From: B21-G16 sp003644825 [NCBI: Candidatus Zhuqueibacterota bacterium]
GTDB lineage: Bacteria > SM23-31 > B21-G16
Direction of reading: 5' to 3'
NCBI GenBank assembly: GCA_003644825.1
Contig: QNDJ01000059.1
Span: 1 to 7,779 of the forward strand
DNA: 7,779 nt
Below are positions 68 to 6,836 of the stretch, piece after piece; position 1 is the stretch's first letter, and every line of letters begins with the position of its first letter. A program made the position numbers and the translations under genes. Below the pieces are notes generated by a model. The model saw only the letters and a program-made list of their open reading frames with translations, did no database searches and was not told the DNA's origin.

Positions 68-3000
68 TTAACTGGATAAAAACCCATAACTTTCAGGAAT
101 TTTATCAAGCCTTAATTCTGGTATAACAGTTTTTTCTAACTTATATAATTTGTCTACAATAATATTTGCTTCACCCTGGACTCTCGATTGAACTTTCCCT
201 TTCACAATATATGGTCCATACCCCTGAAGAATTTTTCCATACCTTTTATAAACATCCGGAAACATTATACATTCCATTAAACCTTCTTTATCTTCAATTG
301 TGATAAACTTTACATAACCGCCATTTTTAGATGGTGCTCTTCTCATAGTAACAAGCCAGCCGGCTACTTTTACCAATTGACCTTTCTTTTTCTCAAGCTC
401 CGACGAGCTGGTTATAGATAAATCCGATTCTATTTCCGGGAATAAACTCAATGGATGAGCAGAAATAGCATACCTCAATATCTGTAACTCATTAATAACT
501 TTTTGTTCTATTGAATAAGAAGGAAAATCTATATTTCTGGTAAAATAAATAGCAGGTTCTTTTTTCTTTTTATTTCTGAAAAAAATCTGAATTTTAGCCA
601 GTGCTTTTGCTTCATTTTCTTCAAGATTGTTTAACGCACCACATTTTGCAAGATTAACGGCTTCTCTTTCAGACGGGTTAACCCTGTATAAAAAATCGAA
701 TATATCCTTAAAATTTGATTTTTTTCGATTTTCTAAAATTCTTTCGATGGTTTTACTGGTAAGTTCATATACCGGGAAAAATCCTGAAATTATTGTGTTA
801 TCTTTAAAAGTAAACTCTCTTTCTGATATATTAACATCAGGTGGTAAAATATTTATACCAAGTCGCCTGCACTCTTCTATATATTCAGCTATCGTATAAA
901 AACCGCCACCGTTATTCAAAACAGCCGTCATATAAGCAGATGGATAATGTCTCTTCAAATAAGCAGAATAATATGATATCATACCATAAGTTGCACTATG
1001 AGCTTTATTGAAACCATATCCGACAAAATTTTCTATCATTTTCCATATTCTTTGAGCTGTATTTCTTTTTATTCCTCTTTCCATAGCACCCTTCACAAAC
1101 TTACTTTTCATAATTAACATTGTCTTTAAATTTCTGGATTTAGTCATAGCTCTTCTCAGTAAATCAGCTTCAGCCAGTGTAAACCCTGCAATAACATTGG
1201 CTATCTTTAAAACCTGTTCCTGATATAATATTACTCCATAAGTTTCCTTCAATACAGGTTCAAGAGATGGATGAAGATAGTTAACCTTTTCCAGTCCGCA
1301 TCTCCTTTTTACATAGAGGTCTTTCATTCCACCTTCAGCGGGTCCCGGTCTTATAACCGATATAGCTGCTATAATATCATTTATATTTTTAACCTTCATT
1401 TTTTTCAGGAGAGTCCTCATTATCGGGCTCTCAAGTTGAAAACAGCCAACTGTTTTACCGTCCATTAACATCTTAAAAGTTTCTTCATCATTCTCCGGAA
1501 TAAAATCAACATTTTTCATATCTGTATACTTTAAACAGTCATTTATAGCGCTTAACATCCTTACGCCTAAAAGGTCTATTTTTATTATTCCGATTTTTTC
1601 AATTGAATGCATATCGAACTGAGATATTATTAATCCCTTTCCTGATTTCTCAAGGGGAGTATAATCTGTAATTTCATCTGGCGCAATTACAACACCACCA
1701 AGATGAACAGAAAGGTGACGTGGAAAATCTCCTATAAACTTACTAATCCTGAGTATTTCCCTGTAAATTTTTCTTGAAATAGGATGATTTTTACATTCAG
1801 GAATTGTATTTAGAACTTTATCCAGTTTGTTTAAACTCTGATGAGGTAGAGATTTTGTGAGACTTCTTACTTCCTTTTCAGGGATTCCGTATGTTTTTGC
1901 AACATCAGCAATTGCAGACCTTATCTTGAAAGTATTAAAAGTACAAATCATTGCCGTTTTATTTTGACCATACTTTTTATAAATATAATTAAGAACATCA
2001 TCTCTTCTTCTCCAGCAAAGATCAAGGTCAATATCTGGTGGTTCTTTTCTTTCTGGATTAAGAAACCGCTCAAAATATAAATCATATTTTACAGGATCAA
2101 CCTTCGTAATATCAAGCACATAGGATACAATACTGTCCGCTGCCGAACCCCTTCCTACACAGGGAATACCATTCCCTTTACAATATTCTACAATATCTTT
2201 TACAATAAGAAAATAATCACAATAACCAAGTTGGTTAATTATGTCAAGTTCATATACAAGTCTTGACATCGCCTTTTCTGGAATTGGATTATATTTGCGT
2301 TTTAATCCTTCAAAACACTTCTTGTATAATAAAGAATATGGAGTTTCACCATCTGGTAAATTTAGAACAGGAAATATATTTTTCCCAGAGGAAAAACAAA
2401 ATTTACATCTTTTCGCAATCTCAACACTGTTCTTTATAGCATCAGGATACCTCTTAAAAATCTGTTTCATTTCAGCTACGGATTTAAAATACTGCTCTTC
2501 TGAGCCATCATACTCAACTTTTTCCAGTGTGGTATTTTTACTTATTGCACAAAGCACCTTTCTTATTGAATTTTCACTTTTATCAATTAAGTGAACATCA
2601 TTTGTAGCAACTACAGGAACTGAGTAAAGACGGGCAATCTCATAGAGTTTATACAAAGTTAATTTATCCTCTGGACTATGATATTGTAATTCAATAAAAA
2701 AATCCTCACCGAATACTCGCTTATATCTTAAAATCCAATCTCCTGCTTCTTTATTTTTTCGCTTAATTATTATATTTGTTATTCTACCCTTTTTACCCCC
2801 CGATAACAGAATCAGTCCATTTTTATGTTTAAATATATCATCATCAGATAAAGAAAATTTAAGATGACCACCTCTCAGCTTACCCAGTGTAATAATTTTA
2901 CAAAGATTTCTATAACCCTCTTGATTTTTTACAAGTAAAATAACAGAATTCGAATTATCAATTGTAAGTTGACTTCCAATAACAGGATGTATATTTTTTT

Positions 3001-3172
3001 CATTTGCTCTTTCAAAGAATTCTACTGCGCCTGATAGAGTATTGTGGTCTGTCAGAGCAATTGCTCTCATCTTCATAGATTCTGCTTTCTCAATCATTCT
3101 ATCAATCCTTATTGTGCTATCAAGAAGAGAAAAGTTACTGTGACAATGAAGGTGTACGAAGGATGTATCCAT
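68..3172 (-). CDS. dnaE: Short DNA polymerase III alpha subunit (C-family, DnaE2/ImuC-like, probably error-prone)
   Basis: C-family DNA polymerase catalytic subunit. Residue numbers count from an upstream in-frame GTG at 3196. A PHP domain (about 13-280) opens with HLHCHS and has TDH (49-51) and NDVH (199-202). The polymerase domain has GRGSAAD (348-354) and PDIDLD (387-392), giving catalytic D388 and D390. The third aspartate is D541 in KIDLLG. FNKAHSATYG lies at 729-738, a helix-hairpin-helix-like segment near 830-860 and an OB fold near 938-1020. The protein stops just after the OB fold, so the C-terminal tau-binding region of replicative DnaE (about 1160 aa in E. coli) is missing, as in DnaE2/ImuC enzymes. 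QIFF (870-873) could be a weak clamp-binding motif. I chose the ATG at 3172 because AGGA lies 9 nt upstream; the GTG has no Shine-Dalgarno. It overlaps dinB by 38 nt, suggesting translational coupling. The family call is firm; the translesion role is inferred. Confidence 0.9.
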   Translation of the reverse strand: MDTSFVHLHCHSNFSLLDSTIRIDRMIEKAESMKMRAIALTDHNTLSGAVEFFERANEKNIHPVIGSQLTIDNSNSVILLVKNQEGYRNLCKIITLGKLRGGHLKFSLSDDDIFKHKNGLILLSGGKKGRITNIIIKRKNKEAGDWILRYKRVFGEDFFIELQYHSPEDKLTLYKLYEIARLYSVPVVATNDVHLIDKSENSIRKVLCAISKNTTLEKVEYDGSEEQYFKSVAEMKQIFKRYPDAIKNSVEIAKRCKFCFSSGKNIFPVLNLPDGETPYSLLYKKCFEGLKRKYNPIPEKAMSRLVYELDIINQLGYCDYFLIVKDIVEYCKGNGIPCVGRGSAADSIVSYVLDITKVDPVKYDLYFERFLNPERKEPPDIDLDLCWRRRDDVLNYIYKKYGQNKTAMICTFNTFKIRSAIADVAKTYGIPEKEVRSLTKSLPHQSLNKLDKVLNTIPECKNHPISRKIYREILRISKFIGDFPRHLSVHLGGVVIAPDEITDYTPLEKSGKGLIISQFDMHSIEKIGIIKIDLLGVRMLSAINDCLKYTDMKNVDFIPENDEETFKMLMDGKTVGCFQLESPIMRTLLKKMKVKNINDIIAAISVIRPGPAEGGMKDLYVKRRCGLEKVNYLHPSLEPVLKETYGVILYQEQVLKIANVIAGFTLAEADLLRRAMTKSRNLKTMLIMKSKFVKGAMERGIKRNTAQRIWKMIENFVGYGFNKAHSATYGMISYYSAYLKRHYPSAYMTAVLNNGGGFYTIAEYIEECRRLGINILPPDVNISEREFTFKDNTIISGFFPVYELTSKTIERILENRKKSNFKDIFDFLYRVNPSEREAVNLAKCGALNNLEENEAKALAKIQIFFRNKKKKEPAIYFTRNIDFPSYSIEQKVINELQILRYAISAHPLSLFPEIESDLSITSSSELEKKKGQLVKVAGWLVTMRRAPSKNGGYVKFITIEDKEGLMECIMFPDVYKRYGKILQGYGPYIVKGKVQSRVQGEANIIVDKLYKLEKTVIPELRLDKIPESYGFLSS

Positions 3173-4355
3173 ACTTTCTAATCCTGTATTTTTCACTTAA
3201 TAATAAAGCTCTTGCAGGGATTACCGAAGTAAATCCGAAAAAATTTCTAACTCTATCCACACCAGTATTAACCTGTTCCTGTTTTATCTTTCCAGGGCAT
3301 ATGAATTTTTGTCTTTCCCTGTAATCAATTTCACCAGCTATAACCGCAACAAAACAAATTCTTTTCTTTTTATTATTTACTCTTTTATACAAATTTTTTA
3401 CAATGGAAAAAATCTTTTTACCATCGTCAGTATGGCTTTTTATAAATGTTGATACATTCACTACTCTATTGTCTGAGTATCTAATTTTTAGAGCTACTTT
3501 TCTACAAAACCACTTTTCATCTCGCAGTTTTTTCCCTATTCTTTCCGAAAGATAATTCAACATCGCAAGGATAAAATTTTCATTATCGGTGTCCTCTATG
3601 AAAGATGTTTCTCTGCTTATTTGCTTTGACATTTCCTTACATTTTACAGGTCTATCATCTATTCCATTTGCAAACTCCCAGATTTTCTGTCCATTAGCAG
3701 AACCAACAACCTGCATAATAAAACTTTTTGGCAGGTTTGCAAGCTCACCGACAGTCTTAATACCAAAACTGTTAAAAATCATTTCAATTTTTTTTCCTAC
3801 ACCCGGTATTTCTTTCACCGGTCGTCTGGATAAAAATTCCTTTTCTTTTCCTTCTGGCACTATTGTCAACCCGTCAGGTTTATTTATACCAGAAGCTATC
3901 CTTGCAACAAGTTTTGATGTAGAAATACCTATTGAGACAGTTATTTTCAGAGCTATCCATACTTCTTTTTTGATTTTCAGAGCTATTTCAACAGGAGAAG
4001 AATAAAATCGTTCAAAACCTGTTACATCAATATATGAATCATCCAGAGAACTCATTTCCACATAGGGTGTAATACCTTTTAATATTCCCTCTATAACCAT
4101 TCCTGCAGATTTATACTGTCTGTAGTCCCCCTTTAAAAAGACCGCATTCGAGCAAATTTCCTGAGCTTTTCGTAAAGGCATACCAGTATAAACACCGAAC
4201 CTTCTGGCATGATAATTTGCTGTATGAACACACCCTCTTTCATCTGCAAATCCACCTACTATAACAGGTTTATTTCTGAGTAATGGATTAAATCCTTCTT
4301 CTACCGAAGCAAAAAATGCGTCAGCGTCTATATGCATTATAACTTTTTTATTCAT
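3135..4355 (-). CDS. dinB: Y-family DNA polymerase, DinB/Pol IV-like, with altered catalytic motif
   Basis: Translesion DNA polymerase of 406 aa. The N-terminus MHIDADAFFASVEE gives the first metal-binding aspartate (D10) and a phenylalanine steric gate (F15). The palm motif is SLDDSYIDVTG (103-113) where the family normally has S-[IVL]-D-E-[AV]-[FY]-[LI]-D: D105 is kept, but the catalytic glutamate is aspartate (D106). SIGISTSKLVARIAS and NKPDG (141-162) are typical. The helix-hairpin-helix is EIPGVGKK to about 209, and the little finger covers about 240-350. The conserved tail VDRVRNFFG is at 366-374. The usual clamp-binding QLxLF just before it is replaced by RQKFIC (348-353). Unlike ImuB, it keeps most of the active site. 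It is the first gene of an operon with dnaE. The ATG start has no clear Shine-Dalgarno and lies about 20 nt from the predicted transcription start. Confidence 0.92.
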   Translation of the reverse strand: MNKKVIMHIDADAFFASVEEGFNPLLRNKPVIVGGFADERGCVHTANYHARRFGVYTGMPLRKAQEICSNAVFLKGDYRQYKSAGMVIEGILKGITPYVEMSSLDDSYIDVTGFERFYSSPVEIALKIKKEVWIALKITVSIGISTSKLVARIASGINKPDGLTIVPEGKEKEFLSRRPVKEIPGVGKKIEMIFNSFGIKTVGELANLPKSFIMQVVGSANGQKIWEFANGIDDRPVKCKEMSKQISRETSFIEDTDNENFILAMLNYLSERIGKKLRDEKWFCRKVALKIRYSDNRVVNVSTFIKSHTDDGKKIFSIVKNLYKRVNNKKKRICFVAVIAGEIDYRERQKFICPGKIKQEQVNTGVDRVRNFFGFTSVIPARALLLSEKYRIRKYGYILRTPSLSQ

Positions 4356-4380
4356 AATAAATTCTGAACATTTCTTTTAC

Positions 4381-4410
4381 ATTATACTATTAATAGTATA
4401 CAAATGTTCA
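4381..4410 (-). promoter_or_regulatory. Sigma-70-type promoter of dinB-dnaE
   Basis: On the minus strand a perfect -10 box TATAAT (4381-4386) lies 18 bp downstream of TGAACA (4405-4410), a 4/6 match to TTGACA. This places transcription start near 4374, about 20 nt before the dinB ATG. It lies downstream of the flagellin terminator, so the cassette has its own promoter. Confidence 0.65.
4383..4400. promoter_or_regulatory. Perfect 18-bp palindrome overlapping the dinB -10 box; candidate repressor operator
   Basis: TATACTATTAATAGTATA is its own reverse complement over all 18 bases. It fills the spacer and most of the -10 box of the dinB promoter, the classic position for a repressor site. Since dinB and dnaE2 genes are often in the SOS regulon, a LexA-type repressor is a reasonable candidate, but the sequence fits neither the Firmicutes (GAAC-N4-GTTC) nor the E. 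coli (CTGT-N8-ACAG) LexA box. A shorter pair, TGAACATTT (4365-4373) and AAATGTTCA (4402-4410), flanks it with a different centre. Confidence 0.55.
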
Positions 4411-4523: not shown

Positions 4524-5366
4524 TTATCTGAATAATGCCAGAACATTCTGTGGTACTACATTTGCCTGGGCTAATTGAGCAGTGGCTGTTTGTTGTAGTA
4601 TCTGAAGCCTTGTTGACTTTAGCTGTTCCATAGCTATATCAGCATCCAGAATTCTACTCTTTGTTGCATCAGTATTGGTTATAGCTATACTCAATGTAGC
4701 CTCCTTCACAGTTAATCTCGACACTGAAGCACCAATATTCTGAAGCATATCAGATACAGTCTCTATAGCTGTATTTACCTTAGCTAAAGCTGCACTTGCT
4801 CCTGTGGCTGTAAAAACTTTACTTGATACATTGCTTGAATCAACCTGGAGAGATGAGGAACTCGCAGACTGAGTTATTGCAAAATGCAGGGTATTTGTTG
4901 TTCCTTCTCCAGTTTGATATGAAACTGAATAGGTTCCATCTATCAGAGAAATGTTGTTGAAGGTTGTTTCTTCAACAATATCATCAATTTCGCTTGTGAG
5001 CTGGTCGATTTCAGTTTTTATAGCATTTCTCTCAGCGGAACCCAGGGTATCACTTGCTGCTGATGTAACTTTCTCTTTAATGGTTATAAGTATATCACTT
5101 ATATTTAACAATCCACCTTCAGCAATAGCAAGAACGTTTTTTGCGGTTCCAACATTGTCATAAGCAACAGATAGACCTCTGGACCTTGCACCCAATCTTC
5201 TGGAAATAACAAATCCAGCAGGGTCATCAGCTACTTCATTAATCCTTAAACCGGTAGCTAATTTTAACTGACTTATCTCCAGATTCCGGTTAATAAATTT
5301 AAGAGAATGAAGTGCATTAAAAGCAGCAATGTTGGTGTTAATTCTTGTGGAATCTCCAATAGCCAT
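4524..5366 (-). CDS. fliC: Flagellin (short filament protein)
   Basis: Structural subunit of the flagellar filament, secreted by the flagellar type III apparatus. It has 280 aa, no cysteine and no classical signal peptide. The N-terminal D0/D1 part (about 1-142) has RINTNIAAFNA, ATGLRINEVADDPAGFVIS and FNNISLIDG. The C-terminal D1/D0 part (about 192-280) ends in AQLAQANVVPQNVLALFR, the usual flagellin tail. Only about 50 Ser/Thr-rich residues lie between, so the outer D2/D3 domains are essentially absent. Five extra residues (GDSTR) precede the usual start of the INTN motif. The ATG has a strong AAGGAGG 8 nt upstream. A sigma-28 promoter and probable CsrA sites lie in the leader, a terminator follows, and the gene appears monocistronic. 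The segment matching the TLR5-recognised helix is LITIKEKV (93-100), lacking the usual Q-R pair. Confidence 0.96.
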   Translation of the reverse strand: MAIGDSTRINTNIAAFNALHSLKFINRNLEISQLKLATGLRINEVADDPAGFVISRRLGARSRGLSVAYDNVGTAKNVLAIAEGGLLNISDILITIKEKVTSAASDTLGSAERNAIKTEIDQLTSEIDDIVEETTFNNISLIDGTYSVSYQTGEGTTNTLHFAITQSASSSSLQVDSSNVSSKVFTATGASAALAKVNTAIETVSDMLQNIGASVSRLTVKEATLSIAITNTDATKSRILDADIAMEQLKSTRLQILQQTATAQLAQANVVPQNVLALFR

Positions 5367-5373
5367 TTTTTAT

Positions 5374-5413
5374 ACCTCCTTGTTTAATTTATTTCTGCCA
5401 TCCTTGACAGAAA
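5374..5413 (-). promoter_or_regulatory. Flagellin leader with hairpin and two CsrA-like sites
   Basis: In the flagellin mRNA a 6-bp stem (TTTCTG at 5408-5413 with CAGAAA at 5392-5397) presents a 10-nt loop, TCAAGGATGG, whose CAAGGATG core matches the CsrA consensus RUACARGGAUGU. The GGA of a second site lies 24 nt downstream: AAACAAGGAGGT (5374-5385), a 10/12 match that includes the Shine-Dalgarno. A loop site plus a Shine-Dalgarno site is the known arrangement of CsrA repression of Bacillus subtilis hag. That CsrA acts here is inference, since no csrA or fliW is in the window. Confidence 0.5.
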
Positions 5414-5451
5414 AATTAATTCTCATATTAGTATAGTTCAGCTACTCCATA

Positions 5452-5478
5452 TAATCGACACCCTTTAATCAATCTTTA
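5452..5478 (-). promoter_or_regulatory. Sigma-28 (FliA) promoter of flagellin
   Basis: On the minus strand TAAAGATT (5471-5478), then exactly 11 nt, then GTCGATTA (5452-5459). The FliA consensus is TAAAGTTT-N11-GCCGATAA; the halves match at 7/8 and 6/8 with correct spacing. Start of transcription is expected near 5445, giving a leader of about 80 nt. Confidence 0.82.
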
Positions 5479-5529
5479 ACATACTTTACATTTTTAACAA
5501 ATTATTAAGAAAATTATCATTATTTGCTT

Positions 5530-5556
5530 TAAAGTTATTAATTTTTTTGCCGATAT
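5530..5556 (+). promoter_or_regulatory. Sigma-28 (FliA) promoter of the 59-aa gene
   Basis: TAAAGTTA (5530-5537), 11 nt, then GCCGATAT (5549-5556). This matches TAAAGTTT-N11-GCCGATAA at 7/8 in each half with exact spacing, and is the better of the two sigma-28 sites here. Transcription should begin near 5563, about 40 nt before the small gene's ATG. It points away from the flagellin promoter. Confidence 0.88.
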
Positions 5557-5602
5557 TACTATTAGGAAAAATGTTTAAATGATTTTCGGGAGGTGTTAAA
5601 AA

Positions 5603-5782
5603 ATGGCTATTAATAAAGTTGAAGTTTTTAATATAAAGCCTGTTCCACCACCTTCAATCGAAAAAAATCCATTATTTGAAAAATATCAAAAAGAAAAATT
5701 AGAAGTAGAAAAAAATCCACCTCCACCTTTGCCGGAGGAAGTTAATACAAAACCAGGCTCTAAACTTGATGTAGTAGCATAG
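5603..5782 (+). CDS. Small proline-rich, charged protein co-regulated with flagellin (unknown function)
   Basis: A 59-codon gene that I do not recognise. Three features support it as real: a strong GGGAGGTG ribosome binding site (5588-5595) 7 nt before the ATG, a near-perfect sigma-28 promoter upstream, and a rho-independent terminator 35 nt after the TAG stop. The protein starts MAINKVEVFN, then has two proline clusters (PVPPP at 13-17, PPPPLP at 39-44) separated by a lysine/glutamate-rich, possibly helical stretch (LFEKYQKEKLEVEK, 24-37), and ends GSKLDVVA. It has no cysteine, no signal peptide and no membrane segment, and looks largely disordered. It does not resemble the FlgM anti-sigma factor, which is longer and has a conserved C-terminal helix. 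Its regulation suggests a late flagellar role, for example as a filament- or export-associated accessory, but this is inference. Confidence 0.85.
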   Translation: MAINKVEVFNIKPVPPPSIEKNPLFEKYQKEKLEVEKNPPPPLPEEVNTKPGSKLDVVA

Positions 5783-5816
5783 AAGAATTTATATATTATT
5801 TATTCAGAGTGGATGG

Positions 5817-5851
5817 AAAAAGGGTCATAAATTTGATTATGACCCTTTTTT
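5817..5851. terminator. Bidirectional rho-independent terminator between the 59-aa gene and etfA
   Basis: A perfect 14-bp stem (AAAAAGGGTCATAA at 5817-5830, TTATGACCCTTTTT at 5837-5850) closes a 6-nt loop. A T-run follows on the plus strand (after the small gene) and AAAAAGGG/CCCTTTTT symmetry gives one on the minus strand as well (after etfA). The etfA stop codon (5850-5852) sits at the base of the stem. Confidence 0.93.
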
Positions 5852-6836
5852 AATCTTTCATTATATTTTTTAGCTCTTCTGTTAAAGCTGGAACCACTTC
5901 AAATAAGTCTCCGACTATTCCATAATTAGCAACCTTAAAAATTGGTGCTTCTGGGTCTTTATTTATTGCAACAATCCACTTTGATGAAGACATCCCTGCT
6001 AAATGCTGGATTGCACCTGAAATTCCACAGGCAATATATAATGTTGGTGAAACAACTTTTCCTGTTTGCCCTACCTGGTCACTATGGGGTCTCCAGCCCG
6101 CATCAACGGCAGCTCTCGAAGCACCCACTACTCCATTAAGAACATCCGCAAGTTCCTCAATAATTTTATAATTATCTGGTCCTTTCATTCCTCTACCACC
6201 AGAAACAATTATATCGGCTTCAGTAAGGTCAACTTTCCCTTCCTTTTCCTGCAATATCTCTTTTACTTTCGATTTAAATTTATATCCGGAAAAATCTATA
6301 TTATACTCTTCCAATTCAGCCTTCTTATTTTCGTCAAAAATTTCAGCAGTAAATACTTTTGGCCTTAGAGTTATAAATTTTATTCTTGAGTTCGATCTTA
6401 TAGTAATAAAAGCTTTTCCTGCAAATATCGGTCTTTTTACTTCTATATTTCCATTATTTAAGTCCAATTTCACACAATCACTTATTAATTCAACATTTAA
6501 TCTGGCAGCAAGTCGAGGCGCCAGGTCCCGTCCCATAGCTGAAGCAGACATCAGTATCAATGATGGATTAATTTTTTCTACAATTTCGGATAAAGTTTTT
6601 GCATACCCATCTGTTGAATAACTTTCCAGTAATGGATTTCTTGCGTTTATTATTTTATCGACACCATAGATTCCAAGAGAATGAGAAAGAGTATTCTCAT
6701 TATTTTCTATAATTATTGCAATTAACTCTTTACCTAAATTGTTAGCGATTTTTTTTCCTGCTGTTGCTACTTCAAAAGAAACGTTTCTTAATTTTCCGTT
6801 TCTCGTTTCTGCAAATATTACAACCGGTCCCTCCAT
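5850..6836 (-). CDS. etfA: Electron transfer flavoprotein subunit alpha
   Basis: Alpha subunit of the cytoplasmic heterodimeric electron transfer flavoprotein, which carries electrons from acyl-CoA and related dehydrogenases to a membrane quinone reductase or another acceptor. At 328 aa it is full length. The N-terminal Rossmann-like domain (about 1-200) has VVIFAETRNG and MGRDLAPRLAARL. The FAD-binding C-terminal domain (about 206-328) has VSGGRGMKGPDNY, GASRAAVDAGWRPHSDQVGQTGK (238-260) and the signature LYIACGISGAIQHLAG (266-281), followed by INKDPEAPIFKVANYGIVGD. The ATG is preceded by GGGAGG. The gene starts 19 nt after etfB and ends in the bidirectional terminator, so etfBA is a two-gene operon with no iron-sulfur domain, dehydrogenase or quinone oxidoreductase gene alongside in this window. 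Subunit identity is secure; the redox partners are not visible. Confidence 0.97.
   Translation of the reverse strand: MEGPVVIFAETRNGKLRNVSFEVATAGKKIANNLGKELIAIIIENNENTLSHSLGIYGVDKIINARNPLLESYSTDGYAKTLSEIVEKINPSLILMSASAMGRDLAPRLAARLNVELISDCVKLDLNNGNIEVKRPIFAGKAFITIRSNSRIKFITLRPKVFTAEIFDENKKAELEEYNIDFSGYKFKSKVKEILQEKEGKVDLTEADIIVSGGRGMKGPDNYKIIEELADVLNGVVGASRAAVDAGWRPHSDQVGQTGKVVSPTLYIACGISGAIQHLAGMSSSKWIVAINKDPEAPIFKVANYGIVGDLFEVVPALTEELKNIMKD

Follow-up and report, generated by a model that had tools for sequence, protein, structure and literature searches.

The window, by which we mean the whole 7,779-nucleotide stretch of DNA analysed, belongs to a draft genome (2.48 Mb, 493 contigs, 84% complete); judged by flagellin, its closest named relatives are bacterium SM23_31, CSMAG bins and a KSB1 bin, all of them MAGs. 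From left to right, it encodes a DnaE-type polymerase, a DinB-type polymerase and a flagellin, all on the minus strand, followed by a small gene for a protein of 59 residues on the plus strand, and finally etfA and etfB, again on the minus strand. The features in and around the small gene are the following:

4524..5366, minus strand: flagellin gene, 280 aa (PF00669, 4.8e-32; PF00700, 3.3e-15)
5453..5478, minus strand: sigma-28 promoter of the divergent flagellin, TAAAG-N13-TGTCGATT, 12/13 consensus positions
5530..5556, plus strand: sigma-28 (FliA) promoter of the 59-aa gene, TAAAG-N13-TGCCGATAT, an exact match of the TAAA-N15-GCCGATAA type
5588..5595, plus strand: ribosome binding site GGGAGGTG, read from the sequence, 7 nt before the ATG
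5603..5782, plus strand: likely 59-aa orphan gene, MAINKVEV...GSKLDVVA, an ORF with ATG start, TAG stop and genome-like codons
5669..5713, plus strand: predicted helix, residues 23-37, between two proline stretches (AlphaFold2, single sequence, mean pLDDT 77, pTM 0.35)
5756..5782, plus strand: C-terminal tail GSKLDVVA and TAG stop, fitting G-x-x-h-D-h-x-A
5816..5851, no strand assigned: terminator-like hairpin common to the 59-aa gene and the convergent etfA, with a 15-pair stem and a T run on the plus strand
5850-6836, minus strand: convergent etfA, from the ORF list, with its stop codon at 5850

Judged from its sequence, the frame at 5603-5782 is likely to be a real, undescribed gene with a sigma-28 promoter. 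An ATG frame of at least 59 aa arose in 49 of 1000 dinucleotide shuffles of positions 5367-5849, and one that also had a Shine-Dalgarno core in a single shuffle of the 1000. Its codon choice is genome-like to a degree equalled by none of 2000 synonymous recodings made with the background base composition. The frame is short and was found in one genome only, but these codon and shuffle statistics and the exact sigma-28 site in front of it speak for a gene, and we consider a spurious frame highly improbable. The anatomy of a late-class flagellar transcription unit, as originally predicted, is borne out by this exact site, by the ribosome binding site, which is present as claimed, by the gene-like frame and by a FliA encoded in the same genome. 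The terminator had been described as private; the stem of the hairpin runs into the stop codon of the convergent etfA, and the terminator is therefore shared.

The site at 5530-5556, which had been called a near-consensus FliA promoter, is the sole match to TAAAN{14,16}GCCGATAW in the window, and none of 200 dinucleotide shuffles contained one. It lies 51 bp from the divergent site of the flagellin. Across the six class genomes (the own genome and five others), the stringent form TAAAGN{12,14}TGNCGATA has 50 matches versus 13 for a reversed-pattern control, and the loose form TAAAN{14,16}GNCGATA shows no enrichment in the same genomes (256 versus 235). The sigma-28 consensus precedes several flagellins, fliS, a flgM-like gene and short FlaG-like proteins in this class. 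Seven stringent sites are present in the own genome; by our reading, five stand before a plausible gene start (the 59-aa gene, a flagellin, fliS and two large proteins) and two do not. The sigma factor itself is encoded at L183:2-784, which matches TIGR02479 (FliA_WhiG) with 280.8 bits for a cut-off of 189.6. What would be expected of a member of the sigma-28 regulon, namely an upstream promoter of the right type and a FliA gene in the genome, was thus found for the small gene.

Other genes behind sites of this type were seen in the class. A second unrecognised gene encodes 77-aa proteins, one in the own genome (L172:2028-2261, contig C241) and one in genome G001 (L148:1112-1345), which are 33% identical and end in FDMFI and FDTTV, respectively. 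Neither has a Pfam match over the cut-off, and the own-genome copy has no NCBIfam match either. Three 59-aa proteins whose core resembles FlaG are encoded downstream of sigma-28 sites, one each in G005 (L132:113-292), G001 (L150:158-337) and G003 (L156:1328-1507); their PF03646 scores are 21.0, 20.3 and 23.9 bits, of which only the last is just above the cut-off of 23.8. Stringent sites also occur before or near large proteins (L101, L086, L145 and L143) that, on inspection by eye, have the look of secreted proteins, as if the regulon included non-flagellar surface proteins.

The original prediction held that the 59-residue protein matches no described flagellar small protein, and we likewise found none in Pfam, NCBIfam, the PDB sequences or with a YjfB profile of our own. 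No Pfam family reached its cut-off (only PIGBOS1 was listed, E 0.4), and the searches of NCBIfam and of the PDB sequences gave no match of any kind. We detected no homologue in 40 other genomes, five of the same class and 35 further, with none of the same family among them. Of the 18 weak matches in these and the own genome (best E 0.037), none has the tail or, in the 250 nt upstream, a sigma-28 site; several cross stop codons or sit inside long frames. Among viral contigs, 77 pattern matches yielded no confirmed case. The neighbourhood of other flagellins was similarly empty: we scanned up to 700 nt upstream of ten loci, namely the two other full flagellins of the own genome (93% and 75% identical to that of the window) and eight further class loci, and found no closed divergent small ORF with a Shine-Dalgarno core, with two loci covering 132 and 345 bp only (the 132 bp belonging to an own-genome flagellin). 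Several loci have weak divergent ORFs lacking a Shine-Dalgarno core, and two show the start of longer divergent genes.

The helix at residues 23-37 is the sole element of at least four residues that AlphaFold2 predicts, the rest of the chain being extended. Its flanking proline stretches are PPP at 15-17 and PPPP at 39-42, and would make synthesis of the protein dependent on EF-P.

Because the own genome encodes FlgM, FliS, FlaG, FlgN and FliA separately, the 59-residue protein is no stand-in for any of them. FliS, FlaG and FlgN each lie elsewhere in the genome, and the separate FlgM gene matches PF04316 (8.7e-7, 29.5 bits, cut-off 25) while staying under the NCBIfam cut-off. The true FlaG of this genome ends in GMLFDLKI.

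The most informative feature of the protein is its tail, GSKLDVVA, which links it with an ending that recurs among flagellar accessory proteins. The strict form G-x-x-h-D-x-x-[AVI]-COOH ends 18 of 20 YjfB matches (19 from one search and one from another, whose weaker matches were left out; nine of the 20 are from one genus), 10 of 30 FlaG proteins examined among 34 matches, and none of 30 FlgN proteins examined among 38, whose tails have no G. In one of the two YjfB exceptions, the motif lies within a longer frame; the other is a 403-aa frame that is probably a chance match. A loose form, h-[DN]-x-x-[AVI], written after the YjfB and FlaG tails had been seen, is found in 16 of the 30 FlaG and 17 of the 30 FlgN proteins. 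FlgN was chosen because three of its tails had appeared in a background of 638 termini; minus those three, the count is 14 of 27. In a tabulation by hand of 16 genomes, the loose tail did not co-occur significantly in the FlgN and FlaG of the same genome (p=0.36).

Among background ORFs from the fetched loci, all of them 150 aa or longer, the strict tail was seen in 0 of 688 and the loose tail in six, counted with the fetched match itself omitted in family and tail loci and with loci L001-L019 and L238 left out. Four of these six end identically to FlgN tails already counted. The earlier background had the strict tail in three of its 638 termini, two of which had been fetched by the tail pattern and one of which is a FlaG. 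Against the same termini, a tail matrix trained on YjfB gives GSKLDVVA a moderate score that ranks sixth; of the five termini that score as high or higher (5/638), two had been fetched for the tail and two are FlaG.

At the DNA level, the tail pattern by itself proves nothing, given its reversed controls: the codon pattern GxxhDhx[AV] followed by TAG has one match across the six class genomes, in the window gene, versus seven for the control, and with TAA or TGA stops it has 13 versus 13. By reading, five of the 14 matches end long or complete frames, two end frames cut by a contig end (L177 and L178) and seven look like chance. Three of these five are flagellar by promoter or neighbourhood. 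Besides the window gene, these are a charged, Q-rich protein of 104 aa encoded directly after fliA in the own genome (L183:807-1121, contig C319), with the tail GSKIDIRV, and a protein of 118 aa in G003 (L185:1501-1857, contig C194), with the tail GNSVDLYV, whose gene lies between a rod-protein gene and fliF, as its neighbours are identified by Pfam. This position is usually occupied by fliE. Neither protein has a Pfam or NCBIfam family above cut-off. The other two, long frames with no flagellar link, are a ThiF-family protein (L186) and L181, which is N/Q-rich, fits no Pfam family and lacks a good sigma-28 site. Among the matches listed in a search of openly licensed literature, covering titles and the openings of abstracts, we found no description of the tail as a shared motif, which does not imply its absence from print. 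The available portions of the papers cited here contained no discussion of a role for the C-termini of FlaG and FlgN.

Several known families resemble the 59-residue protein in part. FlaG (PF03646) is likewise a small flagellar protein, and part of the family ends in G-h-h-h-D-x-x-[AVI]; it also serves as the model for the mechanism proposed below. The 59-residue protein differs in having no FlaG profile match and, by reading, no R-x-I-P motif. The export chaperone FlgN (PF05130) shares the C-terminal h-[DN]-x-x-[AVI] in the proportion given above, yet it has a larger helical chaperone domain of about 150 aa, to which the 59-residue protein has no match. The anti-sigma-28 factor FlgM (PF04316) is small and flagellar too, and a copy in G002 (24.7 bits in Pfam, just under the cut-off of 25, and therefore called flgM-like) stands behind a sigma-28 site, whereas the 59-residue protein has no Pfam or NCBIfam match to the sigma-binding part.

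YjfB (PF14070, putative motility protein) is likewise small, has a helix and carries the tail G-x-x-h-D-h-x-A, but it has a long helix region of the LKKALDxQ type where the 59-residue protein has two proline stretches. It has been described, in the available part of the source, as an uncharacterised small protein in the sigma-28 sub-module of flagellar superoperons (PMC11607428). Membership in this family, expected from the tail, was rejected. A profile of 18 YjfB sequences scores the 59-residue protein at -2.0 bits, which was matched or beaten by 173 of 397 scored shuffles and by 219 of 408 scored shuffles that kept the tail (500 of each made). Likewise, PF14070 does not match the protein, and finds nothing at E <= 1 in the own genome. 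As far as sequence comparison goes, the resemblance to YjfB is one of the tail only.

Starting from the gene, its sigma-28 site, and the tail with its recurrence, which are read from the sequence, we infer the expression, docking, partner and effect of the protein as follows. It may be a late-class accessory protein that attaches to the flagellar export machinery through its C-terminal tail, a reading that we hold with a probability of roughly 0.35. Through sigma-28, it would be made when flagellin is made, as a mostly extended chain whose single, charged helix has a proline stretch on either side. The tail G-x-x-h-D-h-x-A would act as a short linear docking tag, like those proposed for the C-termini of YjfB and FlaG and, less strictly, of FlgN, and would bring the protein to the export machinery, most likely to the docking platform on FlhA or to a chaperone attached to it. 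Once docked, it could tune how late substrates are delivered or exported, in the manner of Campylobacter FlaG, and may be exported too. The original prediction had spoken of a filament-associated, export or regulatory factor; the late-class unit and the absence of a described family behind that suggestion stand, and we have amended it with the shared terminator and with the fit of the tail to the ending of YjfB, FlaG and (loosely) FlgN.

The docking function of the tail is suggested by analogy with work on FlgN, FlaG and FlgE, as given in the accessible parts of these reports. In Campylobacter jejuni, FlaG binds FlhA and antagonises the delivery of flagellin by FliS as a competitor, limits filament length and is secreted (PMC12445086). 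Salmonella FlgN binds a hydrophobic dimple of FlhA (PMC7955116). A C-terminal targeting signal is described for FlgE, an early substrate, with residues unlike a tail of the GSKLDVVA type (PMC10936197). We found no link to the tail in the available part of a report on Helicobacter pylori FliS and HP1076 (PMC7248283). The two further tail proteins in flagellar operons of the same class argue for docking. Against it, the residue of FlgN critical for FlhA binding is, in what is accessible of that study, Tyr-122 and not the tail (PMC8527033); no homologue of the 59-residue protein was found, the DNA pattern of the tail is not enriched genome-wide, L186 and L181 carry it with no flagellar link, FlgN tails have no G, the loose tails of FlgN and FlaG do not co-occur significantly, and the matrix score is only moderate.

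Other readings of the protein have to be set against docking. It could be a highly diverged YjfB in which a proline-rich linker has replaced the second half of the helix: the size is similar, a central helix is followed by the same kind of tail, and M1, G52, D56 and A59 fall on invariant columns of a six-sequence alignment. We consider this quite improbable, since its profile score lies within those of the shuffles and PF14070 misses both the protein and, at E <= 1, the whole own genome. A regulator in the sigma-28 circuit, for example an anti-sigma factor or a translation-feedback factor acting on the divergent flagellin, would suit a small, charged protein and divergent promoters with 51 bp between their sites; the own genome has a separate FlgM (PF04316), to which the protein has no match, and this role seems very doubtful.

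The tail also ends, in its loose form, the cytoplasmic chaperone FlgN, which speaks against reading the protein as a small late substrate of export, destined for the medium or the filament, with a tail that is only part of an export signal and with no role at the gate. By eye, the protein has no Sec signal peptide. In favour of such a substrate are the promoter class, which is that of flagellin, the sigma-28 sites before or near large secreted-looking proteins elsewhere in the class (by eye), and the secretion of FlaG according to the accessible text (PMC12445086); on balance, we regard it as unlikely. Somewhat more remote is a lineage-specific orphan captured by a sigma-28 promoter, with little or no flagellar function and a tail that matches by chance. 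The missing homologues in the five other class genomes and the 35 further ones would fit this, as would the weak matches with neither tail nor nearby sigma-28 site and the two other full flagellins of the own genome, which have no such neighbour (one with 132 bp upstream only). The exact promoter, the codon usage and the absence of the strict tail from all 688 background ORFs count against it.

If docking is nevertheless the role of the 59-residue protein, the h-D-x-x-[AVI] tail, which in the small proteins is preceded by a G, could be a shared short linear motif through which soluble flagellar proteins of unrelated families bind to a single site on the export machinery. FlgN, FlaG and YjfB would belong to this set, as would unnamed operon proteins and sigma-28 orphans like the one described here. 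This generalisation is tentative, and the odds are against it. Were it true, lineage-specific regulators of filament growth could arise just by gaining a tail and a sigma-28 promoter, and the shared tail would help to detect unrecognised late flagellar genes, which are small and elude family searches.

At the other end of the window, the genes for the DnaE-type and DinB-type polymerases (68-4355) overlap at 3135-3196, and an imperfect TGAACATTT...AAATGTTCA palindrome lies upstream of them at 4365-4410. Together, the pair and the palindrome resemble a damage-inducible mutagenesis cassette, and may represent one.
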